DNA of 64,000 bases from a virus. Positions 1,155 to 42,945 of the stretch are shown piece after piece (the stretch's first letter is position 1; each line of letters begins with the position of its first letter). The stretch spans positions 1-64,000 of IMG/VR virus record IMGVR_UViG_3300026097_000013; one strand, written 5' to 3'. A model generated the notes under the pieces. It did not search any database and was not told where the DNA came from. It worked only from the letters and a program-made list of their open reading frames with translations. A program made the position numbers and the translations under genes.

Positions 1155-1162
1155 TATAAATA
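1155..1162 (+). promoter_or_regulatory. T4-type late promoter (exact TATAAATA), ATG at predicted +1
   Basis: TATAAATA is followed by 5 nt and then the ATG of the NlpC/P60 gene at 1168. T4 late transcripts start about 6 nt after this box, so the predicted +1 is the A of the start codon and the mRNA would lack a leader. There is no Shine-Dalgarno sequence. Confidence 0.8.
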
Positions 1163-1167
1163 ATTGC

Positions 1168-1746
1168 ATGAGGGTACCTTTTTTTATCATTGTTTGTGCA
1201 GCACTGAGCGGGTGTAACATGAGTATCACAGATGCGTTTCGCGGCAATGGACTGGCAGCACCGCCTGACACACTTACTATAGCAGAGCAGTATGTGGGCA
1301 TGAACGAACATGAGAACCGTGTGACACTTCGAGAGTTTCTTGGAATAGATCCTGTTAGAGTAGAATGGTGTGCTGCGTTTGTTAATTCAGTGCTGGAAGA
1401 AACTGAAGTTGAGTCAACTCGCAGTCTAATGGCACGTTCCTATCTAGATTGGGGAGTAAGCACTGATGAACCTTCGCCTGGAGACATCATGGTGTTTTCA
1501 AGAGGAAACCAAGGCTGGCAAGGACATGTGGGATTCTATGTTGCTACGGTAGGATATAAAAACAACAAGTATTGGGTAGTGCTAGGAGGCAATCAAGACA
1601 ACTCAGTTAGCTATAGACTATACAAAGAAAATCATTGGAGACATCTAGACACTAGGACACTGCCCGATAGCGAAAAGCAAAAGGCACTGGTAGAACGCCG
1701 CTGGTTGTTTGGCGGCATTCCTCTAGATATAATAGAACAAGATTAA
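1168..1746 (+). CDS. Putative lipoprotein NlpC/P60-CHAP-type peptidoglycan hydrolase (endolysin candidate)
   Basis: 192 aa. It starts with a hydrophobic segment and a lipobox, L13-S-G-C16, suggesting export and lipidation. The rest resembles small cysteine amidase/endopeptidase domains (the TIGR02594-like group): catalytic Cys68 in EWCAAFVNS, His120 in GHVGFYV, and a following GGNQ motif at 140-143 where the third polar residue lies. By family it would cut peptide or amide bonds of peptidoglycan, so it is the best lysis candidate in the window. A lipid-anchored endolysin would be unusual; alternatively it acts in tail-associated wall opening. It is isolated on the plus strand behind a late promoter, consistent with late lysis. 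Its stop overlaps that of gp41 by 4 bp. Confidence 0.75.
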   Translation: MRVPFFIIVCAALSGCNMSITDAFRGNGLAAPPDTLTIAEQYVGMNEHENRVTLREFLGIDPVRVEWCAAFVNSVLEETEVESTRSLMARSYLDWGVSTDEPSPGDIMVFSRGNQGWQGHVGFYVATVGYKNNKYWVVLGGNQDNSVSYRLYKENHWRHLDTRTLPDSEKQKALVERRWLFGGIPLDIIEQD

Positions 1747-3179
1747 TCGCCTAGGTTGTTTAGGAAACTGCGCAGCTTGCTTGAATCTGTTTCTGCACGA
1801 ATCTTCTTGACAGGTGCTCCGTCTTCTGGATCATCATTTATGCTGTCTGCGGGTGTTGTAGTTCCCATACCACGTTTTAGATTGGCTACAATTGAACTTC
1901 CACTTGTGCTACCTGCACCTGCTGTGCTTTGTTCGTCGTCTTCACCGATGTCGTAGATGCGCAGTGTGTCTACGTCAAAGCCTAGATCAACCTTTTGTCC
2001 TACACCACTTGAACTACGTGTCTTCATCAACTGGATCTGATAGCGTCCACGCTCACGCATGGCTCTGCTGGTAAAGATACCAATCAAATTGTCTGCTGTG
2101 TTGATCTTTGAAATACCACCTGAGATATGCGAGTGATCAAATTCAATCTCTTCTACACTCGATCTGTTCAACTGCGATGCTGTTACAAAGATTGTGTTAA
2201 GTTCCATTGCTAAGTTGCGTAGCTCTTCCGATACATACTTGTCTTTGACAAACAAGTTCTCTGCTGAAATCTTTTGTCCGATTGGATGCATCAAATCTAG
2301 ATAGTCAATTAACAGCACATCTACTTTCTTGCCTGTCTTGATTTCATACTCTTTTAAGTATGCTCTAACATCGTTTGCGTTCTTGCCTGTGGGCATGTAC
2401 TTGACTTGAAATGCGCCCGACTTCTTACCAATCATCTTGACTTTTAGTTCGACATCTTCGATACTCTTAAAGATATCACGACTTGGAATCTCTGTAGTCA
2501 TAGCATCTACACGCATACTTACTAGTGCTTCTGACAGCTCGAATGTCAAGTACATCACGTTGAGTCCAGCCAGTGCCCAGTTCACACCCATGTTCGCCAT
2601 AAACAAACTCTTACCCGAACCCGAACCGCCTGCAAAGATATTCAGTTCGCCTCGGTTGAATCCGCCAAACAATTTCTTGTCTAGTGCGGGCCAGCCTGTG
2701 CTTACTTGTCCGTTCTTGTCTTTGATGCTTTCGAGTCTGCCTCTAGGGTCAGCAAAGTAGTCTGTGCCTAGATCTTTTTGTAAGCCAATCTGCACAGCCT
2801 GCTTGACTAGATCTTCACACGCACCGTACTCGCCAGACTCTAGTAGGTCTGCACTTTTAAGAATAGCTGCTTCCAGTGCTTTGTGTTTAGAGAACGTTTC
2901 AAAGTCCTGCAACAACCAGTCATAATGATTCTCTGCTAGCTGCCCAGGATCTTTAAGATCAGTTTGTGTAGCAGCGTTCACCATATCAAATGTAGGCAGT
3001 GCATTATGCTCTTCTACATATTGTTTGATAAACTTAGCGGGTTCTACCAAACGCCTATCAAATGTATTAGGATCAAACACACCCTGACAGCGTACAAAGC
3101 TCTCAGCGTCTGTCATAAACATCTCTAGATATACTTTTTGTATATCATACCCATAGTCTGTGTTTTGTCTTGTGCTCAT
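1743..3179 (-). CDS. 41: Replicative DNA helicase, T4 gp41 / DnaB family
   Basis: 478 aa, close to T4 gp41 (475 aa). The N-terminal domain (about 1-145) is helical. The RecA-like motor has Walker A GGSGSGKS (184-191), Walker B VDVLLIDYLDLM (286-297), the sensor TASQLNR (333-339) and an arginine-finger strand QLMKTRSSSG (383-392). The C-terminal 70 residues are polar and likely flexible. By family it forms a hexamer that unwinds DNA 5'-3' at the fork and works with the primase encoded at 4862-5857. The ATG lies exactly at the predicted +1 of a perfect sigma70-type promoter, supporting this start and early expression. Confidence 0.95.
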   Translation of the reverse strand: MSTRQNTDYGYDIQKVYLEMFMTDAESFVRCQGVFDPNTFDRRLVEPAKFIKQYVEEHNALPTFDMVNAATQTDLKDPGQLAENHYDWLLQDFETFSKHKALEAAILKSADLLESGEYGACEDLVKQAVQIGLQKDLGTDYFADPRGRLESIKDKNGQVSTGWPALDKKLFGGFNRGELNIFAGGSGSGKSLFMANMGVNWALAGLNVMYLTFELSEALVSMRVDAMTTEIPSRDIFKSIEDVELKVKMIGKKSGAFQVKYMPTGKNANDVRAYLKEYEIKTGKKVDVLLIDYLDLMHPIGQKISAENLFVKDKYVSEELRNLAMELNTIFVTASQLNRSSVEEIEFDHSHISGGISKINTADNLIGIFTSRAMRERGRYQIQLMKTRSSSGVGQKVDLGFDVDTLRIYDIGEDDEQSTAGAGSTSGSSIVANLKRGMGTTTPADSINDDPEDGAPVKKIRAETDSSKLRSFLNNLGD

Positions 3180-3185
3180 GTGTTG

Positions 3186-3214
3186 ATTATACTACCTATG
3201 CCATTTGTTGTCAA
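3186..3214 (-). promoter_or_regulatory. Consensus sigma70 promoter of gp41, leaderless geometry
   Basis: On the minus strand TTGACA (3209-3214), a 17-nt spacer and TATAAT (3186-3191) match the sigma70 consensus exactly. Six nt (3180-3185) separate the -10 box from the ATG at 3179, which places the start codon at the predicted +1. Confidence 0.85.
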
Positions 3215-4157: not shown

Positions 4158-4174
4158 ATTATATTCTTCTTAAT

Positions 4175-4699: not shown

Positions 4700-4709
4700 A
4701 TTTTCACTT

Positions 4710-4871
4710 TCATTTGTAAATAAACGGGTCTTTTTTGCGTAGCTCTTTAAGCTTCTTTCTAAAACGTAGTTCTTCAGTAATGCGTGTATATGGCCAAATA
4801 ATAATTCTCCATACTACCATGACTGCAAATACTATTGCTAACCAAATTTTATTTAAAATGTTTAAAACCAT
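4710..4871 (-). CDS. Small single-span membrane protein
   Basis: 53 aa, ATG start (4869-4871) overlapping the last 10 bases of the primase gene, TGA stop at 4710-4712. The first half is a strongly hydrophobic segment (residues about 5-26, including IWLAIVFAVMVVW) and the second half is basic and helical (RFRKKLKELRKKDPF). That predicts one membrane span with a positively charged tail, probably cytoplasmic. I cannot name a family or function. The tight placement between primase and oxygenase supports it as a real gene. Confidence 0.65.
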   Translation of the reverse strand: MVLNILNKIWLAIVFAVMVVWRIIIWPYTRITEELRFRKKLKELRKKDPFIYK

Positions 4872-5857
4872 TTTTTCATCCTCAGTTTAATTTTAAGTGA
4901 CGAGCTTTCTGCTGCACTAGCTATGCTATACAATGTATATAATCTACCGTACTTAGCAACTGCATCACCAATGTCGTTGATGTCTGAATCCCAGTTGGGC
5001 ATACTGACTTGCCAGCCTAGATCCATTGCTTGTTCTACTAATTTTTTACCTGCACTATCTCTGTCAGGAACAACGATAATATCTTTGTTAAGTCTATTTA
5101 ACAGCATTGCTTGTTGTTCGCCTACTTCGGATCCTAATAGTGCGCAGCCTTCTACATGTATAGCGTCCAATGGACCTTCGCATACTATACAAAATGCTTT
5201 TTGCCAACGCTGCTCATCAAGCCCATATACGTATCCAGGTTGACTTTCTGTAAGATATTTTGCTTTTGTTTCAGACTTAACCGTACGAGCAGTCCAACCT
5301 ACAATGCGTTCTTCATAATAGAAAGGAATAATAAATCTATCTCGATACCCTAATTTTGTAGTCCAATAGTAGTTTGTATCATCTAAATTAAGATCACGAG
5401 ATGCCATGTACTGGACTACTTCGATAAAATTATTAAAGCCTAGGTTGTGTTCATTATAATCTGGAATATCTTGTATCCGTACTGCATCTTCAGGCAACTG
5501 CACTGTTGAAAACTCTGGTATTTCGACCAAGTGTTCTTTAGCTTCGATACCTTCATTCATTCTAAGAATATCTAGTGCTAGTTTGTTAATATTGTCATCC
5601 GGTACGTTGAGCCACTCTAACAACTTGCGAAGTTTAAATGTCATGTGTCTTCCAGGTTGCCATCCTGTTTTAAATCCGCAGTTAAAGCAATGAAAACTTA
5701 CAACATCACCTTCTTGTATTAAGCCGCCGCGTTGCTTAGTATCTCGTGTTTCGTTATTGTGTACGCAACAGGGAGCATCAAAGCTAGTCCATCCACTAGG
5801 AGTAGTTTTTCGCTTTGCTGGCAAGTGTGCTGCGATTGTGTCAGATACGATGCTCAT
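4862..5857 (-). CDS. 61: DNA primase, T4 gp61-like
   Basis: 331 aa, similar in size to T4 gp61 (342 aa). It has an N-terminal zinc-binding module (C30-x2-H33 and C57-x2-C60, CFNC) and a TOPRIM domain with E227 in VCEGPLDAI and the DxD motif VPDRDSAG (D265, D267). By family it makes RNA primers for lagging-strand synthesis in complex with the gp41 helicase encoded two kilobases downstream. A sigma70-like promoter immediately upstream puts the ATG at +1. It overlaps the downstream 53-aa gene. Confidence 0.9.
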   Translation of the reverse strand: MSIVSDTIAAHLPAKRKTTPSGWTSFDAPCCVHNNETRDTKQRGGLIQEGDVVSFHCFNCGFKTGWQPGRHMTFKLRKLLEWLNVPDDNINKLALDILRMNEGIEAKEHLVEIPEFSTVQLPEDAVRIQDIPDYNEHNLGFNNFIEVVQYMASRDLNLDDTNYYWTTKLGYRDRFIIPFYYEERIVGWTARTVKSETKAKYLTESQPGYVYGLDEQRWQKAFCIVCEGPLDAIHVEGCALLGSEVGEQQAMLLNRLNKDIIVVPDRDSAGKKLVEQAMDLGWQVSMPNWDSDINDIGDAVAKYGRLYTLYSIASAAESSSLKIKLRMKKWF

Positions 5858-5863
5858 AACATT

Positions 5864-5892
5864 ATAATAGCACCGTGGAGAAGTTTTGTCAA
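5864..5892 (-). promoter_or_regulatory. sigma70-like promoter of primase, leaderless geometry
   Basis: Minus strand TTGACA (5887-5892), 17-nt spacer, TATTAT (5864-5869), then 6 nt (5858-5863) to the ATG at 5857. An overlapping TATAAT 3 nt closer to the gene would have a poorer 20-nt spacer. Confidence 0.75.
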
Positions 5893-6678
5893 TCAGTTTC
5901 TGATTAAAATCTTTTCAATTGTGTCTGCTGGATTTGTGTCTGTAACAAATCTTAAATAACTAAACACACCATTAAAGTTTACAGGAGTTGGAGTTACTTC
6001 AGATCCGTCAAGCGTTAGCGTAGCTACATCAGCCCATTGTGTGGTGTCTGTAATTTGGTTATCAAGAGTAGCCTGTACCACTACATCACCGCTGTATGAC
6101 GCTGTATACACTGCTGCGGTGTGTAGAGCTTCGTTACCATTAATAGCAGGTTGTGCGTCAATTGTTTCTGAAACCCACTCGTCTTTATCTACCTGTGTTT
6201 GTGTAAACTGAGTAACTTCATAAGTAGCCAATGGTCCTGGCATAGTTCTAGCATTAACATAGATAGTTGCATCGTTGTCGAAGTTTGAATGACTATATGT
6301 TAATAGTTTTTGATTTTCTGAATCTACTAAGTAAACATTATAATTTAAGTATTGTTGTTTAAGATTGAGTAAATCATTTTCTGTAATAGTTACACTAAAC
6401 AATCCTCGAACACCAGTAGATCCGTCGTCTTGAATAACACCTTGTCGTTCAATAACAAGTGATTTGTTTTCGTTAAATGCAACAAACATTGGAGTATAAC
6501 CTGTAGTATCGATTGGCCTTTGATCAGCATTCATTAATCTAAATTGAATGACATTATCAATGCCTTTGTAAACTTGTAGTTGTCTGCTGTACACTGGTCT
6601 ATACTCCGTAATAAAACCTGCCATATCTGCGACTAGGTTGACTCTGTTATTGACTAAATATCTAGGTAATAATTGCAT
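5893..6678 (-). CDS. Putative virion structural protein
   Basis: 261 aa, beta-rich and low in Cys, with stretches typical of T4-like marine phage virion proteins (for example an N-terminal MQLLPRYLVN followed by domains of alternating polar and aromatic residues, and a C-terminal FNGVFSYLRFVTDT strand pattern). I recognise no named T4 counterpart. It is expressed from a late promoter directly at its start codon, consistent with a virion component, perhaps a fibre or baseplate decoration. It ends where the primase promoter begins. Confidence 0.55.
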   Translation of the reverse strand: MQLLPRYLVNNRVNLVADMAGFITEYRPVYSRQLQVYKGIDNVIQFRLMNADQRPIDTTGYTPMFVAFNENKSLVIERQGVIQDDGSTGVRGLFSVTITENDLLNLKQQYLNYNVYLVDSENQKLLTYSHSNFDNDATIYVNARTMPGPLATYEVTQFTQTQVDKDEWVSETIDAQPAINGNEALHTAAVYTASYSGDVVVQATLDNQITDTTQWADVATLTLDGSEVTPTPVNFNGVFSYLRFVTDTNPADTIEKILIRN

Positions 6679-6682
6679 ATAG

Positions 6683-6689
6683 TATTTAT
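6683..6689 (-). promoter_or_regulatory. T4-type late promoter (ATAAATA), near-leaderless
   Basis: The box lies 4 nt upstream of the ATG at 6678, so the predicted transcript start coincides with the start codon within a base. Confidence 0.7.
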
Positions 6690-6704
6690 TTTAAAAAAGA
6701 CAGA

Positions 6705-7076
6705 ATGTTAACAAAAGATATTGAAGAAAAATTTCCATTCCTTAGCGTAGTTACGTATGGTGGCAACGAGTATATCGGCATCGTTATTAATCAAGATAAT
6801 GTCGTAACTAGTATGTATGTGTATACTGATATAAGAGAAATAGATGCACAACGTCGATTTTTAGAATTAGGTGAAGTATGGTGGTGGGAATCAAATAGAA
6901 TGATTCCTATTAATATTTTTCTTAAGGACGAAATGAACGAGTTCAAACCGTGCATAGTAACTATGAATACAAAAGATGTTAGAGTTACAATTGGGCCTTG
7001 TGTAAATTTAAATAATTTATCAGTAAAAAGAATAAAACGTAAAAGTGTACAGCTAGTTCGTAGACCTAAGAACTAA
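6705..7076 (+). CDS. Conserved-looking hypothetical protein
   Basis: 123 aa with a balanced composition: MLTKDIEEKF start, an aromatic motif VWWWES near residue 58, and a basic tail (KRIKRKSVQLVRRPK). I do not recognise the family. The basic end could contact nucleic acid, but that is only compositional. It is the lone plus-strand gene between two minus-strand blocks and its end overlaps the converging mini-DnaE gene by 11 bp. Confidence 0.6.
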   Translation: MLTKDIEEKFPFLSVVTYGGNEYIGIVINQDNVVTSMYVYTDIREIDAQRRFLELGEVWWWESNRMIPINIFLKDEMNEFKPCIVTMNTKDVRVTIGPCVNLNNLSVKRIKRKSVQLVRRPKN

Positions 7077-7626
7077 TTTGTTCACATAGTAAATTCATGT
7101 GTACTACACACGCCATAGCATAAGAAATGGCATGTGCTTTCTTAAAATAGTATGCACCGTCTTCAGGCTTCTTCCATATTTCTTCGTTTATCGTTTGCCA
7201 AGTTTCGTTGACAAGATGGCGTTTCGCAGGCCGTATCATCGCTAGTACTGCTGCTAACTGCTCCACTGATTGTGGCTTTAATTGTTTTAACAAATCGCTG
7301 TGCCCGTTTAAGTGGAATACCTGATCTGAAAATTCTTTGTGCTCCAAAAGTTGCCATAGTGGTTCTGTATCCATTAATCTATTTAAATGTTCTTCATTTT
7401 CGACATCATTGTATATACTAACATTCAAAAAGTCAAGTTTAAAATAGCCTCGGTCTTCTGCTGTCTTGTAGTCAATAGTAGCAATTTCATTAAAAGGATT
7501 GTGAGGGATCTCAGTCACATAAACACCAGTGTTGTGTTTTTTACCTGTATCAAGTTTTGCCACGCGATGCTGTATTTTGTTTAAGATAATATCTCTGTTT
7601 GAAAAATCTATATCGATATCAGGCAT
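7066..7626 (-). CDS. Mini DnaE: fragment-sized DNA polymerase III alpha-like protein
   Basis: 186 aa, versus about 1,160 aa for bacterial DnaE. It keeps, in order, the landmarks of the DnaE palm: PDIDIDF at 2-8 (D3 and D5 match the catalytic pair of PDFDVDF), a GKKHNTGVYV stretch (28-37) like GKHAAGVVI, KLDFL (63-67, D65 matching the third carboxylate) and FKKAHAISYA (161-170) like FNKSHSAAYA. Thumb, fingers, PHP and clamp-binding parts are absent or drastically shortened. A strong GGAGG ribosome site precedes the ATG, so it is not a random remnant. It may be a catalytic mini-polymerase, a regulator or a decoy subunit. It ends the uvsW-kds-def gene run. Confidence 0.7.
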   Translation of the reverse strand: MPDIDIDFSNRDIILNKIQHRVAKLDTGKKHNTGVYVTEIPHNPFNEIATIDYKTAEDRGYFKLDFLNVSIYNDVENEEHLNRLMDTEPLWQLLEHKEFSDQVFHLNGHSDLLKQLKPQSVEQLAAVLAMIRPAKRHLVNETWQTINEEIWKKPEDGAYYFKKAHAISYAMACVVHMNLLCEQISS

Positions 7627-7798
7627 TTTTTATTTTCCTCCAAAAGAATCCCTTGCGTGAAAGAGGACGCTGTCCTATATACTCTTCGCCTGTTTCCAAG
7701 TCAACTAACTTATATTTACTAGGACACTTAGTACGAACTTCCATAGTAATAGGAAATTCGTATTCAGGTGCTTTTGTTCCGTCGATCAGTTTACGCAA
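7619..7798 (-). CDS. Small conserved-looking protein between def and mini-dnaE
   Basis: 59 aa if translated from TTG (7796-7798), or 41 aa from the internal ATG at 7744. The reading frame overlaps the end of the deformylase gene by 8 bp and the start of the mini-DnaE by 8 bp, a tight fit typical of real genes here. The sequence is hydrophilic (VRTKCPSKYKLVDLETGEEY) and ends in a basic aromatic tail. No family is recognised. Confidence 0.5.
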   Translation of the reverse strand: MRKLIDGTKAPEYEFPITMEVRTKCPSKYKLVDLETGEEYIGQRPLSRKGFFWRKIKNA

Positions 7799-8288
7799 AT
7801 GCTTTCTCCAGCTTACGTGCTTTCTTTTGTGCCATGTCCCATTTAAGTTTACTTACACGATCTTTGATGGTAATACCTAGTAGATGATCAAGCTCATGTA
7901 AAAATACTTTAGCACTATAGCCTTCGATCTTTACTACACACTCTTTTAAATTTTCGTCGTACCATTGTGCAAGTATTTCTTTAGGACGTTTTACTTTTAC
8001 AAATGTATTAGGAAAACTTAAACATCCTTCTACGTCATATTGTGTGTCTTTGGTATATTGTAAAATTGTTGGATTAATACAAATAGTAGAGTTTTCTTTT
8101 GAATCTCCAAATACAAATACCTTAGCGTCTAGTCCAATTTGATTAGCTGCTAGACCAATTCCGCCGTGTTGTAGCATTAGATCTACCATTTGCTCTTTTA
8201 GTTCTAGAGGGTCGAAACCAGGATCTTCTAGATTAACATCTTTGACTTCGCGCTCTAAAATTTCATCGGGGTAGTATACTAATTTCAT
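7791..8288 (-). CDS. def: Peptide deformylase
   Basis: 165 aa. All three signature motifs of the family are intact: GIGLAANQIG (43-52), EGCLSFP (87-93, metal-binding Cys) and HELDH (131-135, two metal-binding His and the catalytic Glu). It removes the N-terminal formyl group from nascent proteins. Phage deformylases are known from cyanophages and other marine T4-like phages, where they are thought to speed maturation of proteins with short half-lives. This one is about the bacterial core size, without the usual C-terminal helix extension. It overlaps the zinc-finger gene by 4 bp in the long early operon. Confidence 0.95.
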   Translation of the reverse strand: MKLVYYPDEILEREVKDVNLEDPGFDPLELKEQMVDLMLQHGGIGLAANQIGLDAKVFVFGDSKENSTICINPTILQYTKDTQYDVEGCLSFPNTFVKVKRPKEILAQWYDENLKECVVKIEGYSAKVFLHELDHLLGITIKDRVSKLKWDMAQKKARKLEKAFA

Positions 8289-9422: not shown

Positions 9423-10089
9423 TCCATGTCTCCACATCTTCTGGAGTATTAATCTCTACTCCATTAAAGTATACATTCTTACAGCCGATTTGCCAACCGT
9501 TTTTGAGCCAGCGCAGTTGTTCGAGCTTTTCAATGTTTTCTTCAGGATACTTTCTCAGATGCGGGTATGCCTTTATTGCTTCTTTAGTATAACCATATAC
9601 ACCTAAGTGCCATTCACCATATCCTGTAATTCCTCTGCCGAACCATAGAGCAGTATCTTTGCTGTCCTTGATCATCTTCACACTATTAGGATCGTCTTGC
9701 ATTTCCTTAGGCATGTCTGTGTAGACTGTGCTAACATCAAACGAGTTAAGCAACAGAACTGTATTCAGTAACATTTCAGTTGTAACATCAGGCATGTCTC
9801 CTTGTACATTTATGAATTGATCAAACTCTTCGAACTTGCGACTTAGTACAGCGCCTGCACATCTTGCAGTGCCATTTTCGTAATCAGTTTTGTCAACATA
9901 ACAATATTGTGCAGGAATCAAATCAGCAATACGTTTATCGTCAGTTAGCACAAACGTCTTGAAGCCTGCATTCCAGCAAGCATTGAACACACGTTGTATC
10001 ATTGTAGTGTCACCTAACTTGCACAAAGGCTTGCCAGGAAAGCGTGTGCTGCCGTATCTAGCGGGTATAAGAATAGCGGTGGATGTCAT
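9403..10089 (-). CDS. kdsB: 3-deoxy-manno-octulosonate cytidylyltransferase (CMP-Kdo synthetase)
   Basis: 228 aa, near the bacterial size of about 250. The nucleotide-binding signature IPARYGSTRFPGKPL is at 8-22, followed by the FVLTDD strand, NVQGDMP (the Mg-binding QGD), and late HLGVYGYTKEA and EQLRWLKNG motifs typical of KdsB. It couples Kdo to CMP from CTP, producing the sugar donor for lipopolysaccharide inner core or capsule linkers. Its start overlaps kdsA by 32 bp, so both are translated from the same early transcript. Kdo is absent from marine cyanobacterial lipopolysaccharide, which argues for a proteobacterial host. Confidence 0.93.
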   Translation of the reverse strand: MTSTAILIPARYGSTRFPGKPLCKLGDTTMIQRVFNACWNAGFKTFVLTDDKRIADLIPAQYCYVDKTDYENGTARCAGAVLSRKFEEFDQFINVQGDMPDVTTEMLLNTVLLLNSFDVSTVYTDMPKEMQDDPNSVKMIKDSKDTALWFGRGITGYGEWHLGVYGYTKEAIKAYPHLRKYPEENIEKLEQLRWLKNGWQIGCKNVYFNGVEINTPEDVETWNAKQTY

Positions 10090-10831
10090 CGACTACCTCC
10101 TCAAAATCTTCTAAGCACAGCATGTTAGGACCATCACTAGGTGCGTTGTCTGGATCGGCGTGTACTTCTAAGAAGAAATTAGTAACACCCAAAGCGGCGG
10201 CACTACGAGCCATGCCAGGAACGTAAGCGCGATTCCCGCCGCTACTACTTCCATTGCCGCCTGGCTTTTGTACGCTGTGGGTAGCATCAAACACCAGAGG
10301 ACAGTCAAAGTTATCAAGCATATACTGCATACCAGTATAGTCCACGACCAAAGTATTATAACCAAAGCTAGTTCCCCTTTCAGTGATCCAGACTTCTCGA
10401 GCGTCTGCACACTTACTTAGCACTCCTGTCATGTCCCACGGTGCAAGGAATTGGCCTTTTTTAATATTAACAATCTTGTCTGTAGCACATGCTGCTTGAA
10501 TTAGATCAGTTTGACGACAAAGGAATGCAGGTATTTGATACACATCTACTGCATCTCTAAACTCTCGCTCAATTCGATTAACTTGTACATAGTCATGCAC
10601 ATCTGTTAGTGTCTTTACACCTAGTGTAACTTTAAGTGCAAGAAAGTCTGTAAGCGTTGCGTCCATACCCATGCCACGTTTGCCAGTAGCACTTGTACGA
10701 TTTGCTTTGTCGTAACTTGCTTTAAAGTAATATTCAATACCATACTTGTCGCATACACGTTTGCACTCACGTGCAATCTCAGCACTCTGAGCTAGTGATT
10801 CATGCTGACAAGGTCCTGCTATAATTCTCAT
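10058..10831 (-). CDS. kdsA: 3-deoxy-8-phosphooctulonate synthase (Kdo-8-P synthase)
   Basis: 257 aa, somewhat shorter than E. coli KdsA (284). It contains GPCQHES (6-12), FKASYDKANR (36-45), TDVHDYVQV, FLCRQTDL and the barrel end LVFDATHSVQKPGG and FFLEVHADPD. These are family signatures of the (beta/alpha)8 enzyme that condenses phosphoenolpyruvate with arabinose-5-phosphate. Together with kdsB it gives the phage two of the four Kdo steps; the isomerase KdsD and phosphatase KdsC are not seen in this window. It sits in the operon run below uvsW and overlaps the 85-aa gene by 4 bp. Confidence 0.95.
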   Translation of the reverse strand: MRIIAGPCQHESLAQSAEIARECKRVCDKYGIEYYFKASYDKANRTSATGKRGMGMDATLTDFLALKVTLGVKTLTDVHDYVQVNRIEREFRDAVDVYQIPAFLCRQTDLIQAACATDKIVNIKKGQFLAPWDMTGVLSKCADAREVWITERGTSFGYNTLVVDYTGMQYMLDNFDCPLVFDATHSVQKPGGNGSSSGGNRAYVPGMARSAAALGVTNFFLEVHADPDNAPSDGPNMLCLEDFEEVVDDIHRYSYTR

Positions 10832-14619: not shown

Positions 14620-14625
14620 ACACTT

Positions 14626-14654
14626 AGTATAGCTTAGATAAGCTTAGATGTCAA
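14626..14654 (-). promoter_or_regulatory. Consensus sigma70 promoter of the uvsW-kds-def operon, leaderless geometry
   Basis: Minus strand TTGACA (14649-14654), 17-nt spacer, TATACT (14626-14631), then 6 nt (14620-14625) to the ATG at 14619. It overlaps the 3' end of the glycan island and would drive about 7 kb of tightly packed genes. Confidence 0.85.
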
Positions 14655-19525: not shown

Positions 19526-19530
19526 GTAGA

Positions 19531-19538
19531 TATTTATA
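19531..19538 (-). promoter_or_regulatory. T4-type late promoter (exact TATAAATA), ATG at predicted +1
   Basis: The box is followed by 5 nt (19526-19530) and the ATG at 19525. It controls the run of glycan genes down to 14634. There is no Shine-Dalgarno sequence in the gap. Confidence 0.8.
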
Positions 19539-20940: not shown

Positions 20941-20942
20941 TT

Positions 20943-21536: not shown

Positions 21537-21541
21537 ACAAC

Positions 21542-21549
21542 TATTTATA
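21542..21549 (-). promoter_or_regulatory. T4-type late promoter (exact TATAAATA), ATG at predicted +1
   Basis: Five nt (21537-21541) lie between the box and the methyltransferase ATG at 21536. It is back to back with the plus-strand late promoter at 21565. Confidence 0.8.
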
Positions 21550-21564
21550 TACGTACTTTACAGC

Positions 21565-21570
21565 TAAATA
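21565..21570 (+). promoter_or_regulatory. T4-type late promoter (CTAAATA), ATG at predicted +1
   Basis: TAAATA is followed by 5 T residues and the ATG at 21576. It diverges from the methyltransferase promoter; only 15 bp lie between the two boxes. Confidence 0.7.
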
Positions 21571-21575
21571 TTTTT

Positions 21576-25089: not shown

Positions 25090-25168
25090 AGTTATGCCTC
25101 CTAATTTTATGCCTATGTGCCTTTGATAGCGTTTTGCTATCTGTGCCTAATTATGTAGCACACTTATA

Positions 25169-27077: not shown

Positions 27078-27081
27078 ATTG

Positions 27082-27088
27082 TATTTAT
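27082..27088 (-). promoter_or_regulatory. T4-type late promoter (ATAAATA), near-leaderless
   Basis: Four nt (27078-27081) separate the box from the ATG at 27077, so the start codon lies about at the predicted transcript start. Confidence 0.7.
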
Positions 27089-28668: not shown

Positions 28669-28673
28669 ATCAA

Positions 28674-28679
28674 TATTTA
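28674..28679 (-). promoter_or_regulatory. T4-type late promoter (TAAATA) of gp17, ATG at +1
   Basis: TAAATA is followed by 5 nt (28669-28673) and the gp17 ATG at 28668. It begins only 4 nt after the T-run of the upstream terminator, so upstream transcripts are probably stopped and gp17 restarted here. Confidence 0.7.
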
Positions 28680-28682
28680 CCC

Positions 28683-28710
28683 AAAAAAATAGCACCCGAA
28701 GGTGCTATTT
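28683..28710 (-). terminator. Rho-independent terminator with UUCG tetraloop
   Basis: On the minus strand AAATAGCACC, loop TTCG and GGTGCTATTT form a 10-bp stem closed by the extra-stable UUCG loop and followed by a run of T (TTTTTTT). This is a textbook intrinsic terminator after the gene ending at 28730 and directly before the gp17 promoter. Confidence 0.92.
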
Positions 28711-32675: not shown

Positions 32676-32680
32676 AGTAA

Positions 32681-32687
32681 TATTTAT
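32681..32687 (-). promoter_or_regulatory. T4-type late promoter (ATAAATA), ATG at predicted +1
   Basis: Five nt (32676-32680) separate the box from the ATG at 32675, so the predicted mRNA is leaderless. Confidence 0.75.
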
Positions 32688-32775: not shown

Positions 32776-33423
32776 TTAGTCTGTTGATAGTGTTCCGCCG
32801 ACGTCACCTGCTGTGAATCTTGTTTCTTCAGATCCAACGCCTGTGCGTGTGTCACCGTTCTCACCAAACTGAATTGCGTTATCATAACGAATAGATAGTG
32901 TAGTAGTAACAGCATCACTTGTTGCGTATGCTAATGTGTTGTAGTTTGCACTTTCAAGATAGCATCCAACTAGCGTGTAGTTGTCAACAACATTTGCGCC
33001 GTTTGCGCCGTTGCCGCCGTCTAGTATTTCGATGATTGTTTTAAACTTATAAGAACCACCTGATACAGCACTTGACTGCTCGAAGAAATCAAACTGCTTC
33101 TGTAGCTGTTTACCAACCATCTTCTGTACGTTATTATTTGCATCTTCACGTAGAGTAAGAGTAATTGGTTCCCATGTGTGCTTACCAGCTAGGTAAGTTC
33201 TTGAGTTATATGCGTCTAATGTCATTTGTTCAAATGAAACATTTGGACGAGTTACGTCAACAACTTGACGTGTTAGTTCTTTTAGGCCATCGCCTGTATC
33301 CGGTCCGCCGAAGCCTTCAAATAGCACTCTAAAGCGATATTGTAGCTTTGGCATTAGAAGGTTAGCATTGCTGTTTGCGCCTTCGTTAGGTACCGAAATA
33401 TTCTGTAGTGTTGTGATTGGCAT
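32776..33423 (-). CDS. 19: Tail tube protein gp19
   Basis: 215 aa, somewhat larger than T4 gp19 (163 aa). The tube signature is clear: PKLQYRFRVLFEGFGG, QVVDVTRPNVSFEQMTLDAYNSR, WEPITLTLREDANNNV and a C-terminal ESANYNTLAYATSDAVTTTLSIRYD, the main beta strands that line the DNA channel. It polymerises around the tape measure inside the sheath encoded by the upstream gene. Its leader has an AGGAGA site and it is followed by a strong terminator, consistent with a separately tuned high-level transcript. Confidence 0.93.
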   Translation of the reverse strand: MPITTLQNISVPNEGANSNANLLMPKLQYRFRVLFEGFGGPDTGDGLKELTRQVVDVTRPNVSFEQMTLDAYNSRTYLAGKHTWEPITLTLREDANNNVQKMVGKQLQKQFDFFEQSSAVSGGSYKFKTIIEILDGGNGANGANVVDNYTLVGCYLESANYNTLAYATSDAVTTTLSIRYDNAIQFGENGDTRTGVGSEETRFTAGDVGGTLSTD

Positions 33424-33444
33424 TCTAATCTCCTGTTACATTAA

Positions 33445-33451
33445 TATTTAT
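33445..33451 (-). promoter_or_regulatory. T4-type late promoter with leader (gp19)
   Basis: ATAAATA with a predicted start about 16 nt upstream of the gp19 ATG and an AGGAGA ribosome site in between. Confidence 0.7.
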
Positions 33452-33498: not shown

Positions 33499-36400
33499 TT
33501 AGCCAAGTGCTGCAATTTCGCCTGTGTTCTTAATTCTCAATGGAATGTAAATAAACTCGATTGCTTTAACTGGTTCGATAGCAATATCTAACCAAAGCTC
33601 ATTACGATCAATTCTTGCCGGTGTGTTGTTAGTTTCGTCACACACAACTAGGAAGTCATAAAGTGCTCTTAGCGTTACTAGTTCAAGTAGCAATGCATCT
33701 GCTGCTGCCTTGACTTGATCACGTGTGATCTTGTCGTTTGGCTCAAACAAATATGGTCTTGCTAGCTGCTCTAGTTGTACACGTAAGTAAACAACCAAAC
33801 GTGCTACATTTACTCTGTCTAGAGCACTTGCATTTCTTGCACGAGTTTTTTGTCCAAATACAACTAGTCCTGATCCGTTTAAGAACGTAATCGGGTTAAT
33901 ACTATTGCTGTATAATGTATCACGCTGTCCTGTGTTTAGAGCAACACTTTGGAATTCGCCTTCTGAAGTTACATAACCACTTGCTGTAGCATTAGTTACG
34001 CCGCCGCGTCTTGTACCTGCTGGTGCAAACCATGGATAAGCAACTTGGTCATTTAGAATGATTGTTCTAAGTGCCATGTGGCTCGGTGGTACAACAACAT
34101 TGTTACCTGCGTTATCGCTTGAGAATCCCCAACCCCAGTACATTGCTAGATATTCATCAAAGCTTACTGCACCGTCATCGTTGTCTTCAACTGCTAGTCT
34201 AACATTATTTGCCCATTCGTTAAGTGAAGTTGCATCTGGTGTTAGTCTTGCTGGAACATCTGCTACAACAAATGCTGTTAAACGTCTGTCATAGTTAAAT
34301 GATACCATTTCGCCAATTAGCTCAGGATAACCTGGGCATGCGATCAAGTTAAAGATACGTGATTCTTCGTCACGGATTTCTTGGTTGCTGTTGACTTCAG
34401 CTTGTAGAGCTGTAATAACAGTCTTACGCTGAGCTTTACGTCCAAATGTACCTGAACCGTCTTCTTCGTTTGGAGAAGCAGTAATCCAGCGGTGTGGGTA
34501 GTAATCTGCCATTGGTTCGTCTTCTAGTGAACCGCTGTTGCCGATTGCTTGGAAACGTCCGTTGTCGCCGTCTACATCAATGTAGTTACGAACAAACTTC
34601 TTAACGTTAAATCCGCTTCTGCGTGTGTTCCATAGCAACATACCTTTTGGATATAGTGCAGGATCTGGTGCATCTGGATCTAAGTAATCGCTTACTAATA
34701 GATCTGCAATTGGTGCTTCTACTGAATTTTCACCTGCATCACTCCAACGTGCATCTGCAAATAAGATACCGTTTTCTGTGGTTTGATCAGTTTTATCTAG
34801 TAGTACCCAGCTTTCTAGTAAGCCGTTATAACGATAAACATTACCATACTCTTCAACATCTGATGTATCAATCCAAAGATCGCCGTCAACTAATGGACTA
34901 TCGTCTGTTTGTGCAGTTGGTTCTGTAGCACTTACGATCGGACCTTCTGGGTTTGTATCTTGATACGCTGCACTAAAGTTTTGGTATCCTACCCAGTTAG
35001 AACCATCATGTATTAGCATGTCAACTTCGTCAACAATTGAGTTGTACCATAGTTCGCCGTCTGCTGTTAAGCTTAGTGGCTCATCGTCTGATGCTGTATA
35101 CGTTAGTGGTTTCCAGTTTGATGCAACAAAATCATGTGTTGCGTCACCTGTTGGTGCTGCATATAAGTTTGGAGTACCTGCGCCTGTAGTTTCGTTGAAC
35201 GCTGCAAATCCAAGTAAGTTTAGGGCGCCGTCGATGTCGTTGATACGGAAGTCGCCGCCTGTTTTATGCTGGATGATAAGTTTGTTTGCTGCATCAGTTA
35301 ATGCTACAACATTAGTAAATCCTGCTGCGTTAATTGCGCCTGCAATAGTTTTTGCATCTGAACTTGCTGCTGCTGCTGTAAATGATACAGTTTTAGGTTG
35401 TGCAAGTTCAGCTTCGCCTACTTTAGTTTCTCTAATATCAAATGTGTATGTAACACCATTTGTAAGTTGTGTTGAAACTTTGTCACTAGTAACACTTGTT
35501 GCTCCAGTTACAACTCTTCTATAAATTTTAAAGTTAGCAATTGGATACTCTTCTTCTTCAGCGTTTACTTTTACATAAACATCACCTGCTACTAAGTTGG
35601 CGCCGCCGCCTGAACGATCTAAGTCAAAGATAGCTGCTTCATTAGTAGTATGAAGTGGAGCACTTACACTATTCCATAGCTGTGTGTCGCTATTATATTG
35701 CTTAACACTAAATTCAGCACCACCGTTTGGAGTAGTTGTTTTAATCCAAATTGAACCTGTTGGTGCAGGATTAGTATCTGTGTCTTTAAATGCTGGAACT
35801 TGTGTGTGAGGTGCAATAGCTAGCCTTGGTGGACTATATGTCCCGTTAAGGATACCAGTACCGCCGTTGTCCGAACCTGCTAGTCCAGTTAACGATCCTG
35901 CTCCGCCGTCAATTTCAATATCAAACTCATTTGAGTAAATTTCAATAATTCCGTCTACAACTGCTGCTGCAACACCTGATACACTACCGTTGATTCCGTT
36001 GGCTAAATCTGTTACCGTTGTACCAGCAAGAACAATAGTTGCTGTTTCTTCTAGTACACCGCCATTGTAAGTAGTAATAACCATTTCGTCGCCATTGTTT
36101 AGCGTAGGATTAACAACCGTGCCGCGTACTGCTGGCCAGCTTGCTTTCCACTCAGGTGATCCAACTTCAACCCAACTTCCGGCATCGCCTGCTAGTGTGT
36201 TTGTGCCTGCTGTTTTGTACCATAAACGGTTCATTGTAGTTGTTGCGTCTACAGCATAATCGCCAATTTGACCAATTGATGTTACTGGTGCATCTGTAAC
36301 ATCGTCAATGTCTGAAGCTTCAGTAATTGCATAACGGAATTGAGTTGTAAAACTTTGTCCGCCGCGTGTAGTAATTGGTGCAGCATTCCACTCAAGAACA

Positions 36401-36933: not shown

Positions 36934-36939
36934 TAAATA
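36934..36939 (+). promoter_or_regulatory. T4-type late promoter (TAAATA), near-leaderless
   Basis: CTAAATAC is followed by 4 nt and the ATG of the HNH-like gene at 36944. An AAGGTGAG string lies upstream of the box, outside the predicted transcript. Confidence 0.6.
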
Positions 36940-36943
36940 CAAT

Positions 36944-37279
36944 ATGAGACCGTTATGCCAGTGCGGACAACGTCCAGCAGCAATAAACTACAAAAAAGGT
37001 AATAAAACTTATTATCGTAAGCTATGTGAAAGATGCTTGCGAAACGGAGAAGGACATGGCATACCTCTGTGGAAACAGGCAGGTTACGAAAAGAAAAACT
37101 ATTGCGAAAAGTGCAATTTTAAATCACCACATCCGGAACAATTTAATGTATTCCATATTGACGGAGATTTAAAGAATTGTCGTCCAACAAATCTAAAAAC
37201 TATTTGTGCTAATTGTCAAAGGATTATACAAAAAGAAGGAGTGCGTTGGAGACAAGGAGATCTTACTCCTGATTTTTAG
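36944..37279 (+). CDS. HNH-type zinc-binding protein (putative endonuclease)
   Basis: 111 aa with two zinc-binding pairs: CQC near the N-terminus with C28-x2-C31, and C54-x2-C57 with C88-x2-C91. In between is HIDGDLKNCRPTNLKTICANC, the H-x-x-G-D-x-x-N...N-L-x-T-C pattern of HNH nucleases. Such genes are scattered through T4-like phages as homing-type or recombination nucleases; some are conserved core proteins. It is divergent from gp18 and converges with the kinase-like gene with a 4-bp tail overlap. No mobile-element borders are visible. Confidence 0.7.
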   Translation: MRPLCQCGQRPAAINYKKGNKTYYRKLCERCLRNGEGHGIPLWKQAGYEKKNYCEKCNFKSPHPEQFNVFHIDGDLKNCRPTNLKTICANCQRIIQKEGVRWRQGDLTPDF

Positions 37280-37788
37280 TAGGTGCTGTAAGGGTCGATA
37301 TAATTAATAAGCTGTCCTACATTAAACTCTAAGTCCTCTAAAGAACCATTATTATCAATAGTATAATCTGCCATCCATTGCTCGAGACTCATTGAGTTTT
37401 TACTTTCAGGAGGAAGATGATCTAATCTATCAACCCAAATAGCTTTGTCAAATACACCTGTATTTTTCATAGCAAAGAATTCACGTTTGTTACGCAAGCC
37501 GCAGTATATATCGTGTGCTTGAAATATTTCTCTACCTAGCGTAGCAGCATCGGGTACGTTATAGTCACAAATAGCTTCATACCATTCCTGCCTGTGATTA
37601 TGCCTGTCAGCATAGCACTCTTCTTCACTAGTGTAGCCGTACTTGTCTTTTAGATCATTATAGATAAACAACTTGCTACAGAACTTGCTGCTGCTTTCAA
37701 AACTATATCCGTACTTGTCTCGAAGAATTTCGCATACCGTATCTTTGCCGTGGCGGCCGTGACCTATGACTAACAATTTTAATTTCAT
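37276..37788 (-). CDS. P-loop dNMP kinase-like protein
   Basis: 170 aa. P-loop GHGRHGKDT (9-17) near the N-terminus, followed by FESSSKFCSKL and GREIFQ stretches, in the style of phage deoxynucleoside monophosphate kinases of the T4 gp1 group (T4 241 aa, so this one is short). It would feed dNTP supply by phosphorylating dNMPs. A DRLDHLPP segment could be part of the lid. It has its own sigma70-like promoter with the ATG at +1, unusual amid late genes, and converges with the HNH gene. Confidence 0.65.
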   Translation of the reverse strand: MKLKLLVIGHGRHGKDTVCEILRDKYGYSFESSSKFCSKLFIYNDLKDKYGYTSEEECYADRHNHRQEWYEAICDYNVPDAATLGREIFQAHDIYCGLRNKREFFAMKNTGVFDKAIWVDRLDHLPPESKNSMSLEQWMADYTIDNNGSLEDLEFNVGQLINYIDPYSTY

Positions 37789-37794
37789 AGTCGC

Positions 37795-37823
37795 AGTGTA
37801 ACAGATTTAAATTACTTTGTCAA
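37795..37823 (-). promoter_or_regulatory. sigma70-like promoter of dNMP-kinase-like gene, leaderless geometry
   Basis: Minus strand TTGACA (37818-37823), 17-nt spacer, TACACT (37795-37800), then 6 nt (37789-37794) to the ATG at 37788. This places an early promoter inside the structural region. Confidence 0.75.
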
Positions 37824-38578: not shown

Positions 38579-38594
38579 ATTGGTTCTCCAATAG

Positions 38595-38601
38595 TATTTA
38601 T
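38595..38601 (-). promoter_or_regulatory. T4-type late promoter (gp13-like gene)
   Basis: ATAAATA with an approximately 11-nt leader containing GGAG before the ATG at 38578. Confidence 0.7.
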
Positions 38602-38609
38602 CGTTACGC

Positions 38610-38615
38610 TAAATA
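38610..38615 (+). promoter_or_regulatory. T4-type late promoter of gp14
   Basis: CTAAATA on the plus strand. The predicted transcript start is near 38621, followed by AGGAG (38628-38632) and the proposed ATC start at 38640. It diverges from the gp13-like promoter. Confidence 0.65.
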
Positions 38616-38639
38616 TGTATATCGAATAGGAGAACAGCT

Positions 38640-41212: not shown

Positions 41213-41220
41213 TTATTTGT

Positions 41221-41661
41221 ATGACTCAGATAATTTGCAGTGGTGCATTATTCTATACCCTTAATACAAATAGATTTTTATTCCTACATAGAGCTCAAGG
41301 AAAACGAGCAAATATGTGGGGATTAGTTGGCGGTACAAACGAAGGTGCTGAAACTCCATTTGAAGGACTTACTAGAGAAATTTCCGAAGAAATAGGATTT
41401 GTTCCTGAAATCAAAAAGACTCTTCCCTTAGAAAGTTTTATATCTCCAGATGATAGATTTCACTTTCATACATACCTGTGTATAGTTGAAGAAGAATTTA
41501 TTCCCACTTTAAATAACGAACACGACGGTTATGCATGGTGTAGTTTTACTAAATGGCCAAAGCCGTTGCATCACGGATTACGTAATACTCTTCAAAGTAA
41601 AATTAATATTAAAAAACTAGAAACCGTTTTTAAAACTATTAATTTACTTGACTCGAATTAA
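41221..41661 (+). CDS. Nudix hydrolase
   Basis: 146 aa from the ATG 8 bp after the gp15 stop. The Nudix box is complete: G-x5-E-x7-REISEEIGF (a GGTNEGAETP start). Nudix enzymes cleave nucleoside diphosphates linked to another moiety; phage examples range from ADP-ribose and NADH to NDP-sugar or mRNA cap hydrolases. The gene is followed 21 bp later by hldE, and a role in trimming NDP-sugars or the host nucleotide pool is possible. There is no clear ribosome site, so it may be read by coupling to gp15. Confidence 0.8.
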   Translation: MTQIICSGALFYTLNTNRFLFLHRAQGKRANMWGLVGGTNEGAETPFEGLTREISEEIGFVPEIKKTLPLESFISPDDRFHFHTYLCIVEEEFIPTLNNEHDGYAWCSFTKWPKPLHHGLRNTLQSKINIKKLETVFKTINLLDSN

Positions 41662-41676
41662 TAAAGGTATTATAAT
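41648..41676 (+). promoter_or_regulatory. sigma70-like promoter of the ADP-heptose operon, leaderless geometry
   Basis: TTGACT (41648-41653), 17-nt spacer, TATAAT (41671-41676), then 6 nt to the hldE ATG at 41683. It lies across the nudix stop codon and would start the hldE-hldD-cupin-gmhB transcript independently of the late genes. Confidence 0.8.
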
Positions 41677-41682
41677 AGTACT

Positions 41683-42945
41683 ATGATTAAAGTCTACGGA
41701 GACATAATGTTAGATCGTTGGATACAAGGATCTATTCAAAGGATTAGCCCCGAAGCACCAGTTCCTGTATTGCACGAAGAAGAAGTAGGGCATAACGCAG
41801 GCGGTGCAGCTAATCTTGCACTTAACATTAAAAATTTAGGCAGCAGTGTAGAATTATATGGTGCTTGTTCAGATGACCAAGAAGGTAAAACACTTGTAAG
41901 TTTGCTAGACGTTGATAAAGTACATCTAGACATGAGCCATTCTGTTACAACTACTAAGACTAGACTAGTAGATAATAGCGGACAACACGTATGTCGCTGG
42001 GATCGAGAAGCATATTACGACAAAACTGATTTGTTAGAGCAGTGTGCAGACGATTTACAAAAAGATGATATACTTTGCATAAGTGATTACGCAAAGGGCG
42101 TTGTGCGCAGTTCTACAGTTGCAAGATTAAGAAAATATTGCGATACTATTCTAGTTGATCCAAAACAGGAACCTAACTTTTACAAAGGGGCATTTGTATT
42201 CAAACCTAATATAAAATATTGGGCTGACTATTTTGGCAAATTAAACCTAGAAGATATTTCTAGAATAATGAAAGAATATAAATGGGAATGGGTTGTATTA
42301 ACATGTGGCGCTGCTGGCATGTATGTAGTTAACAAAGACGGTAAGTATCGTCATTATCAGGAACCAGTAAGAGAAGTTGCAGATGTAACTGGAGCAGGAG
42401 ATACCGTTCTAGCAGTTATTGCACATTGCTTGTTCCAAGGTATGGATGTATATCGAGCATCAGAGTTTGCATGTTATGCAGGTGCTAGAATGGTTGAACG
42501 CAGAGGCGTTGGTTTAGTAAGCGTAGACGATCTAGTTAAAGGTGTTGTATTTACAAACGGCGTGTTTGATATATTACATACAGGTCATTTTAAACTACTA
42601 CAAGCAGCACGAGCTAAGGGATCTAAATTAGTAGTAGGAATTAACACTGATGCTAGTGTTAAACGTCTAAAGGGCGATGAAAGACCTATTAACACTCTAA
42701 AAAAACGCATTAGTCAACTTGAAATATTACCTTGGGTAGATGAAGTTATTCCGTTCGAAGAAGATACTCCGTTAGAACTTATCAAAGGCATTAGTCCAGA
42801 CTTAATTGTCAAAGGCGGCGATTATAATGTCGAAGAAGTTGTAGGACACGATTATGCCCCAGTATATATCGTTCCCACTGAAGAAGGCTATTCAACGTCA
42901 GAAATTATAGAGAAAACAAATGAAAATACTAGTAACAGGACATAA
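41683..42945 (+). CDS. hldE: Bifunctional heptose-7-P kinase / heptose-1-P adenylyltransferase
   Basis: 420 aa (E. coli HldE 477). The ribokinase-like half (1-280) has GDIMLDRWI, NAGGAANLALNI, a DYAKGV loop and the anion-hole motif VTGAGDT (235-241). The second half begins at VVFTNGVFDILHTGHFK (nucleotidyltransferase HxGH) and ends VPTEEGYSTSEII, all family landmarks. It phosphorylates D-glycero-D-manno-heptose-7-phosphate and later adenylates heptose-1-phosphate. Both domains look complete. It is the first gene of the heptose operon; ADP-heptose feeds lipopolysaccharide inner core and is also a known host immune signal in other contexts. Confidence 0.95.
   Translation: MIKVYGDIMLDRWIQGSIQRISPEAPVPVLHEEEVGHNAGGAANLALNIKNLGSSVELYGACSDDQEGKTLVSLLDVDKVHLDMSHSVTTTKTRLVDNSGQHVCRWDREAYYDKTDLLEQCADDLQKDDILCISDYAKGVVRSSTVARLRKYCDTILVDPKQEPNFYKGAFVFKPNIKYWADYFGKLNLEDISRIMKEYKWEWVVLTCGAAGMYVVNKDGKYRHYQEPVREVADVTGAGDTVLAVIAHCLFQGMDVYRASEFACYAGARMVERRGVGLVSVDDLVKGVVFTNGVFDILHTGHFKLLQAARAKGSKLVVGINTDASVKRLKGDERPINTLKKRISQLEILPWVDEVIPFEEDTPLELIKGISPDLIVKGGDYNVEEVVGHDYAPVYIVPTEEGYSTSEIIEKTNENTSNRT

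Follow-up and report, generated by a model that had tools for sequence, protein, structure and literature searches.

The stretch of DNA analysed here (the window) comprises 64,000 nt of IMG/VR record IMGVR_UViG_3300026097_000013, a 120,484 base fragment of a T4-like phage in which 101 genes were called. Within the window, nine genes are preceded by a T4-type late promoter box located 4 or 5 nt from the ATG, and a further five genes by a sigma70 promoter located 6 nt from the ATG, whereas other genes, including those for sheath, tail tube and gp32, carry Shine-Dalgarno (SD) sites and longer leaders (Table 1). Two additional late boxes of this placement are found outside of the window in the same record, before genes starting at 84157(-) and 105595(+); the latter has an AGGA motif overlapping the box. 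The late boxes are TATAAATA-like, relaxed to NTAAATA or TAAGTA in some cases. A gp55-type late sigma is encoded at 96788-97630 of the record (phrog_12791, E = 1.1e-78; phrog_234, E = 2.6e-22).

Table 1. Close-spaced promoters, contrasting leadered genes and an associated terminator within the window, with the state of each in orthologues
Position	Strand	Feature	Downstream gene	Orthologues
1155..1170	+	T4-type late promoter TATAAATA, 5 nt, ATG	192-aa lysozyme-like protein (ATG at 1168)	The 3 found are not leaderless
3180..3214	-	sigma70 promoter TTGACA-17-TATAAT-6-ATG	gp41-like helicase (1743-3179)	Kept in 25 of 65; others SD-led or within operons
5858..5892	-	sigma70 promoter TTGACA-17-TATTAT-6-ATG	DNA primase (4862-5857)	Kept in 65 of 65, down to 39% identity
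6679..6688	-	late box TAAATA, 4 nt, ATG	261-aa virion-protein-like gene (5893-6678)	Late-leaderless in 19 of 56 start-aligned
14620..14654	-	sigma70 promoter TTGACA-17-TATACT-6-ATG	403-aa gene (13408-14619)	Kept in 10 of 13
19526..19538	-	late box TATAAATA, 5 nt, ATG	HldE-C-like nucleotidyltransferase (18755-19525)	Kept in 23 of 25
21537..21549	-	late box TATAAATA, 5 nt, ATG	methyltransferase-like gene (20943-21536)	
21565..21575	+	late box TAAATA, 5 nt, ATG	sulfotransferase-like (21576-22190), divergent from the gene at 21536	
25090..25110	-	contrast: strong SD (AGGAGG)	gp32-like ssDNA-binding gene (24082-25089)	SD-led in 46 of 46
27078..27087	-	late box TAAATA, 4 nt, ATG	597-aa virion-protein-like gene (25284-27077)	Kept in 36 of 41 start-aligned
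28669..28679	-	late box TAAATA, 5 nt, ATG	terminase large subunit, TerL (27088-28668)	TAA(A/G)TA + 4-5 nt kept in 53 of 56
28680..28710	-	intrinsic terminator (10-bp stem plus T run) ending just before the TerL promoter		
32676..32686	-	late box TAAATA, 5 nt, ATG	393-aa tail-tube-like gene (31494-32675)	Kept in 16 of 16 start-aligned; 15 more had shifted N-termini
33424..33450	-	contrast: TAAATA 21 nt upstream and an SD site	tail-tube gene (32776-33423)	SD-led in 40 of 40
36934..36943	+	late box TAAATA, 4 nt, ATG	111-aa HNH-like gene (ATG at 36944)	Kept in 15 of 16
37789..37823	-	sigma70 promoter TTGACA-17-TACACT-6-ATG	dNMP-kinase-like gene (37276-37788)	SD-led in 9 of 9; peculiar to this phage
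41648..41682	+	sigma70 promoter TTGACT-17-TATAAT-6-ATG	hldE (41683-42945)	Too few to judge conservation

The placement of these promoters is far beyond chance. Across the whole record, TAAATA is located 4 nt from the start codon in three genes, 5 nt in eight and 6-14 nt in none, with the remainder scattered from 15 nt upward and mostly accompanied by SD sites. Sigma70 sites scoring >=9.5 bits occur at exactly 6 nt in five genes, against 0.019 expected per distance, although the matrix used is an approximation of the E. coli one. In 300 dinucleotide shuffles of the upstream regions, the late arrangement was found 0.37 times on average (maximum 4) against 11 observed, and the sigma70 arrangement 0.06 times (maximum 1) against 5 observed. 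Genes were called with a home-made ORF/hexamer caller, and two of the start codons (1168 and 37788) were set by hand. A count of TAAATA followed by ATG across the genome without gene context was only moderately significant; the gene-based test is the proper one. SD-like motifs are found in 1/16 close-spaced genes and in 62/85 others (P = 6e-7). All 16 sites use ATG with a pyrimidine at -1, against 35/85 of the other genes, consistent with the expected Y(-1)A(+1) initiator. Thus, the preliminary description, which had reported the five sigma70 and nine TAAATA sites with these spacers and start distances, was accurate at every position, as was its contrast with genes that keep leaders and SD sites.

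The same pattern recurs in 1,898 genes of IMG/VR relatives. TAAATA is located at a distance of 5 nt in 157 genes and 4 nt in 63, against about 2-12 at neighbouring distances (other close distances mostly 1-12), with a separate broad peak at about 18-29 nt. Likewise, sigma70 sites are found at 6 nt in 76 genes, 7 nt in 25 and 5 nt in 9, with others near 1 and a broad peak beyond 22 nt. These pooled counts contain orthologues and are not independent. SD-like motifs occur in 1% of genes with a sigma70 site at 5-7 nt against 73% at 15 nt or more, and in 11% against 64% for the late boxes. The -1 position is a pyrimidine in 157/157 late sites at 5 nt, 97% of those at 4 nt and 86% of the sigma70 sites, compared with 44% in SD genes. 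Start codons behind the late boxes at 4 or 5 nt are 261 ATG, 12 GTG and 1 TTG. Five long relatives (designated G003, G004, G005, G007 and G008) each show both peaks.

Whether a gene is of the close-spaced or the leadered class follows the gene itself. The close spacing is kept in nearly all orthologues of primase, TerL, HldE-C and the HNH-like gene, and the promoter and its spacing are conserved while the flanking sequence changes; in contrast, gp32, UvsX (39/39) and tail tube are SD-led in 125/125 orthologues together. Of the 16 genes, however, three (lysozyme-like, dNMP kinase and hldE) are not leaderless in the relatives found, with the reservation on hldE given in Table 1.

The feature is lineage-specific. 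Comparison of the spacing across related T4-like genomes, as had been suggested in advance, came out negative in T4 and most other relatives: in T4, Syn9, S-PM2, KVP40, CBB, RaK2, Phosso and phiM12 no gene has the box 4-5 nt before ATG, and in PA5oct only one does. T4-type late promoters (TATAAATA, gp55) of T4, KVP40 and cyanomyoviruses (PMC2984593) have the same box and the same kind of late sigma, but in the genomes examined the box lies mostly 15-40 nt or more upstream. The T4-like Pelagibacter phages HTVC008M and Mosig EXVC030M, however, have late boxes 5 nt before ATG in 11 and 6 genes, respectively, and Mosig also has 4 sigma70 sites at 6 nt, whereas HTVC008M lacks the sigma70 peak. Examples of the TAAATA-N5-ATG genes in HTVC008M are those at 11972, 19456, 49760 and 75830. 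The known host is Pelagibacter ubique. Both encode bS21. The TerL of the phage described here is nearer to those of PA5oct and Phosso. Assignment of a host through MAGs was not informative, as the hits are in bins of Neomarinimicrobiota, Methylophilaceae, Euryarchaeota and Spirochaetaceae; in the first of these bins the convincing sigma70-leaderless matches lie mainly on the two phage contigs. No tRNA genes were found that could help.

The best explanation, held with high confidence, is that these are true leaderless genes. In this view, host sigma70 RNA polymerase (for an early or constitutive set) and the gp55-type late polymerase of the phage (for a late set) would start transcription on the A of the ATG, leaving an mRNA with neither a 5′ leader nor an SD site. 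Translation would then presumably begin by 70S or 5′-terminal-AUG recognition, while other genes of the same phage, in both expression classes, are made with leaders and SD sites. Promoter placement, initiator base, start codon, absence of SD sites and conservation by gene are demonstrated by the analysis, whereas the transcript 5′ end and the mode of ribosome recruitment are inferred from sequence alone, with no mapped 5′ ends. The interpretation in the preliminary description, that the start codon is +1, is supported by the sharp spacing peaks in independent relatives, the -1 pyrimidine, the near-exclusive use of ATG, the loss of SD sites, the conservation of class over primases only 39% identical, and the terminator directly before the TerL promoter, which leaves hardly any room for a leader. 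Some parts of that interpretation are weaker, in addition to the three genes without conserved placement. The set is not simply one of replication, packaging and glycan genes, as had been proposed, since tail and virion genes are included, and the suggested tie to host ribosome changes remains speculative.

As for why particular genes are affected, the likeliest reason is that the mode fixes a lower or differently regulated yield for particular enzymes and assembly proteins, in hosts whose ribosomes accept leaderless messages. A lower yield has no support from codon adaptation, which does not differ clearly between the classes (P = 0.12). The first 40 nt of coding sequence are weakly folded in all classes, most so in sigma70-leaderless genes, and thus 5′-end structure is not specific. 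It is also possible, although unlikely, that two parallel translation channels are run, with leaderless messages preferentially read by ribosomes that the phage has altered, for example with its own bS21, so that a fixed set of replication, packaging and assembly proteins escapes or follows the takeover of SD-dependent translation. A bS21 is encoded by the three longest relatives tested and by HTVC008M, Mosig and Melnitz. However, PA5oct and Phosso encode bS21 without the signature, and the 120-kb fragment shows none, thus bS21 is not sufficient as the cause. No IF3 or S1-domain gene was found in the signature-bearing phages tested.

Other readings of the close promoters appear improbable. Transcription could start 2-5 nt upstream of the ATG or be spread over several positions, giving ultra-short leaders read by a non-SD, AU-rich 30S route rather than by strict leaderless initiation. 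The distances do vary a little across orthologues (late 4-5 nt, sigma70 5-7 nt), and a leader of 1-2 nt is possible at sites with a distance of 4 or 7 nt. However, the Y(-1)A(+1) initiator sits precisely on the ATG, ATG is nearly exclusive, and established distances from the -10 element to the transcription start put +1 on the A; this alternative is considered unlikely. Less likely still is that the genes are expressed mainly from upstream promoters in operons by translational coupling, the close promoters being minor or decorative. Some gp41 orthologues are indeed SD-led or within an operon, and the gene upstream often ends within tens of bases, yet the promoter and its spacing outlast changes in the flanking sequence, TerL follows a terminator, and the divergent genes at 21536 and 21576 have no upstream gene on their strand nearby. 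Chance coincidence of AT-rich motifs with start codons might be considered given that TAAATA is common in DNA of 38% GC (128 copies in the record), but it is refuted by the shuffles, and the single-distance peaks and the absence of the pattern from equally AT-rich T4, RaK2, CBB and (nearly) PA5oct also speak against it.

Leaderless mRNAs have been shown in other systems. Thermus phage phiYS40 is a lytic phage with both leadered and leaderless mRNA and a proposed change of translation mode, with IF2 up and IF3 down (Sevostyanova et al. 2007, pmid 17187825; as described in PMC3594737). There the split follows time, with middle and late transcripts being leaderless. The early promoters of phiYS40 are of the -10/-35 class. 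Here, the predicted leaderless genes are not confined to one temporal class; leaderless and leadered genes occur at both sigma70 and late promoters, and class follows the gene. Bacterial leaderless genes, such as the -10-adjacent genes of Deinococcus (PMC12340547) and those of alphaproteobacteria such as Bradyrhizobium (PMC4842269), as well as lambda cI, likewise have a -10 element directly before the start codon and no SD site, but these are cellular genes or a single phage gene rather than a fixed multi-gene set in a T4-like phage with its own late sigma. The use of leaderless mRNAs at T4-type late promoters together with sigma70 promoters, by gene rather than by time, appears undescribed; no paper combining leaderless genes with TATAAATA was found, and papers on leaderless genes with pelagiphages or jumbo phages did not describe it, in a search that left out most subscription literature.

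The pattern also affects gene finding, as starts in these phages should be called with a leaderless model. Additionally, it offers paired orthologues that switched between leaderless and SD-led starts, allowing tests of what leaderless initiation is for, and it is present in cultured pelagiphages where it can be tested at once. Leaderless translation in phages is known from a few cases. Here, as inferred from promoter placement, it is a conserved, gene-specific feature of a large and widely distributed group of environmental T4-like phages, absent from T4 and most model relatives, in which the mRNA of a fixed set of genes should begin exactly at the start codon while neighbouring genes keep ordinary ribosome-binding leaders; this means that one phage probably uses two different ways of starting translation.

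The preliminary description had reported five sigma70 promoters lying exactly 6 nt before ATG and nine T4-type late boxes lying 4–5 nt before ATG, and from these inferred leaderless mRNAs alongside genes led by Shine-Dalgarno (SD) sites. All fourteen sites were confirmed by reading the sequence, and the observation is real. The window lies within a virus record of 120,484 bases, which was read whole and in which 101 genes were called. TAAATA ends 4 nt before the start in three genes, 5 nt before it in eight, 6–14 nt before it in none, and 15–44 nt or more before it in the others, mostly with SD sites. Sigma70 sites of >=9.5 bits, scored with a matrix that approximates that of E. coli, lie at exactly 6 nt in five genes, where 0.019 would be expected at any one distance. 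Shuffling of the upstream regions gave 0.37 late sites (maximum 4) and 0.06 sigma70 sites (maximum 1), against 11 and 5 observed, respectively. All 16 starts are ATG and all 16 are preceded by a pyrimidine (others 35/85, P = 8e-6), and SD-like motifs are present in 1/16 of these genes against 62/85 of the others.

The phage is T4-like, with a major head protein, portal, terminase, sheath, tube, UvsX, UvsY, gp32, gp41, primase and a gp55-type late sigma. Its TerL is 55% identical to that of Pseudomonas phage PA5oct and 49% identical to that of Sinorhizobium phage Phosso. Relatives in IMG/VR are numerous (at least 80 loci for each of two queries) and reach 357 kb, so the record is probably a fragment of a larger genome. 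No tRNA or tmRNA gene was found by ARAGORN in the whole 120-kb record. A phage-encoded peptide deformylase, a translation-linked gene, is present, as is a protein matching a DNA polymerase family, which suggests a split polymerase. Additionally, two phage contigs of this group are binned into one Neomarinimicrobiota MAG in GTDB, and the convincing sigma70-leaderless matches in that bin lie mainly on them; these contigs share identical promoter matches and may therefore be overlapping copies.

The pattern is repeated in the relatives. In 1,898 distinct genes from 160 relative loci, chosen by TerL and gp41 similarity and with genes called from the first ATG of the longest frame, TAAATA lies at a distance (d) of 4 nt in 63, d=5 in 157, d=6 in 10 and d=7 in 12, with a separate broad hump at about 18–29. 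Sigma70 sites lie at d=6 in 76, d=7 in 25 and d=5 in 9, with near 0–3 elsewhere below 15 and a broad hump beyond 22. SD-like motifs occur in 1% of close sigma70 genes against 73% of distant ones, and in 11% against 64% for late boxes. At d=5 the base before ATG is a pyrimidine in 157/157, against 44% in SD genes, as RNA polymerase prefers at -1/+1. Start codons at d=4/5 with an open frame are 261 ATG, 12 GTG and 1 TTG. These pooled counts contain orthologues, and the gene-by-gene comparison is the safer evidence. Five long relatives each show both peaks on their own.

Among orthologues with aligned starts, class follows the gene. The primase is sigma70-leaderless in 65/65, with protein identity down to 39% and a distance of 6 in 52, 7 in 9, 5 in 3 and 8 in 1. 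The leaderless arrangement is likewise found for TerL in 53/56, HldE-C in 23/25, the 597-aa virion gene in 36/41, the tail gene in 16/16, the HNH gene in 15/16 and the 403-aa gene in 10/13. The SD controls are SD-led, with gp32 46/46, UvsX 39/39, tube 40/40, adaptor 10/10 and sheath 23/24. The gp41 gene is mixed (25 sigma70-leaderless, 19 SD, 21 other), so switches occur, and the lysozyme-like, dNMP kinase and hldE genes are not conserved as leaderless in the relatives found. For TerL, a 10-bp hairpin with a T run ends only a few bases before the box, and the same layout recurs in many relatives, so there is hardly room for any leader. In the case of the primase, the start overlaps a mini-frame in the DNA that leaderless initiation would leave untranscribed. 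A divergent gene pair within the window carries a late box for each gene, and similar divergent pairs occur in relatives.

Coordinates of additional features in the record, its relatives and other phages
Sequence	Position	Feature
Window	5857-5866	Primase start overlapping an upstream ATG-TTA-TGA mini-frame
Window	7066-7626	186-aa protein matching a DNA polymerase family (phrog_11778)
Window	7791-8288	Peptide deformylase
Window	21536-21576	Divergent methyltransferase-like and sulfotransferase-like genes, each with its own late box 5 nt from ATG, within a 39-bp gap
G001 (relative)	60022-60066	Example of a similar divergent pair
Whole record	109607-120484 (8607-19484 of L007, a stretch of the record)	Single open frame of 3,626 codons running off the end of the record
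G003 (long relative)	181826-181981	Ribosomal protein bS21
G004 (long relative)	23004-23159	Ribosomal protein bS21
G005 (long relative)	332212-332364	Ribosomal protein bS21
HTVC008M	91228-91431	Ribosomal protein bS21
Mosig	9932-10141	Ribosomal protein bS21
Melnitz	35389-35661	Ribosomal protein bS21
Phosso (PV764938)	382560-382817	Translation initiation factor IF3 homologue
PBPT01000016.1 (GTDB, 335 kb)		Phage contig binned into a Neomarinimicrobiota MAG
PBPT01000082.1 (GTDB, 153 kb)		Phage contig binned into the same Neomarinimicrobiota MAG

By the same method, T4, Syn9, S-PM2, KVP40, CBB, RaK2, Phosso and phiM12 have no late box at d=4–5 and no sigma70 site at d=5–7, while PA5oct has one of each. 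HTVC008M has 11 late boxes at d=5, Mosig has 6 late and 4 sigma70 sites, and Melnitz has 3 late and 2 sigma70 sites at d=7, which is weak. The trait therefore occurs in at least two T4-like lineages, and may have been gained twice or lost repeatedly.

Promoter position, initiator, start codon, absence of SD sites and conservation are all evident from the sequence itself. That transcription begins on the A of ATG, so that the message is leaderless, is inferred from established promoter geometry rather than from any mapped RNA end, and 5′-terminal-AUG recognition by 70S ribosomes is inferred from work on leaderless mRNAs; neither a difference in yield nor a change in the ribosome has been shown. 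Codon adaptation gave no clear difference. Ribosomal protein bS21 is encoded by the three longest relatives tested and by the pelagiphages and methylophage, but also by PA5oct and Phosso, which lack the leaderless signature. IF3 and S1-domain genes were not found in the signature-bearing phages tested, although Phosso encodes an IF3 homologue as well as bS21. A link to bS21 is thus a lead only.

Leaderless transcripts have been described in other systems. Phage phiYS40 of Thermus makes most middle and late mRNAs leaderless and is thought to shift IF2/IF3 (PMC3594737), and Deinococcus-Thermus and alphaproteobacteria have many leaderless genes (PMC12340547, PMC4842269). Late promoters of cyanomyoviruses have been reviewed without mention of this arrangement (PMC2984593), and the description of Melnitz lists early and late promoters but does not appear to note their distance to the starts. 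No report of leaderless T4-type late promoters was found in the literature searched, which did not include most subscription papers. Taken together, the preliminary inference of leaderless mRNAs is supported and very probably right. Leaderless genes as such are already known, and what appears to be undescribed is their placement at T4-type late promoters, as a conserved feature that is open to direct testing in cultured pelagiphages.
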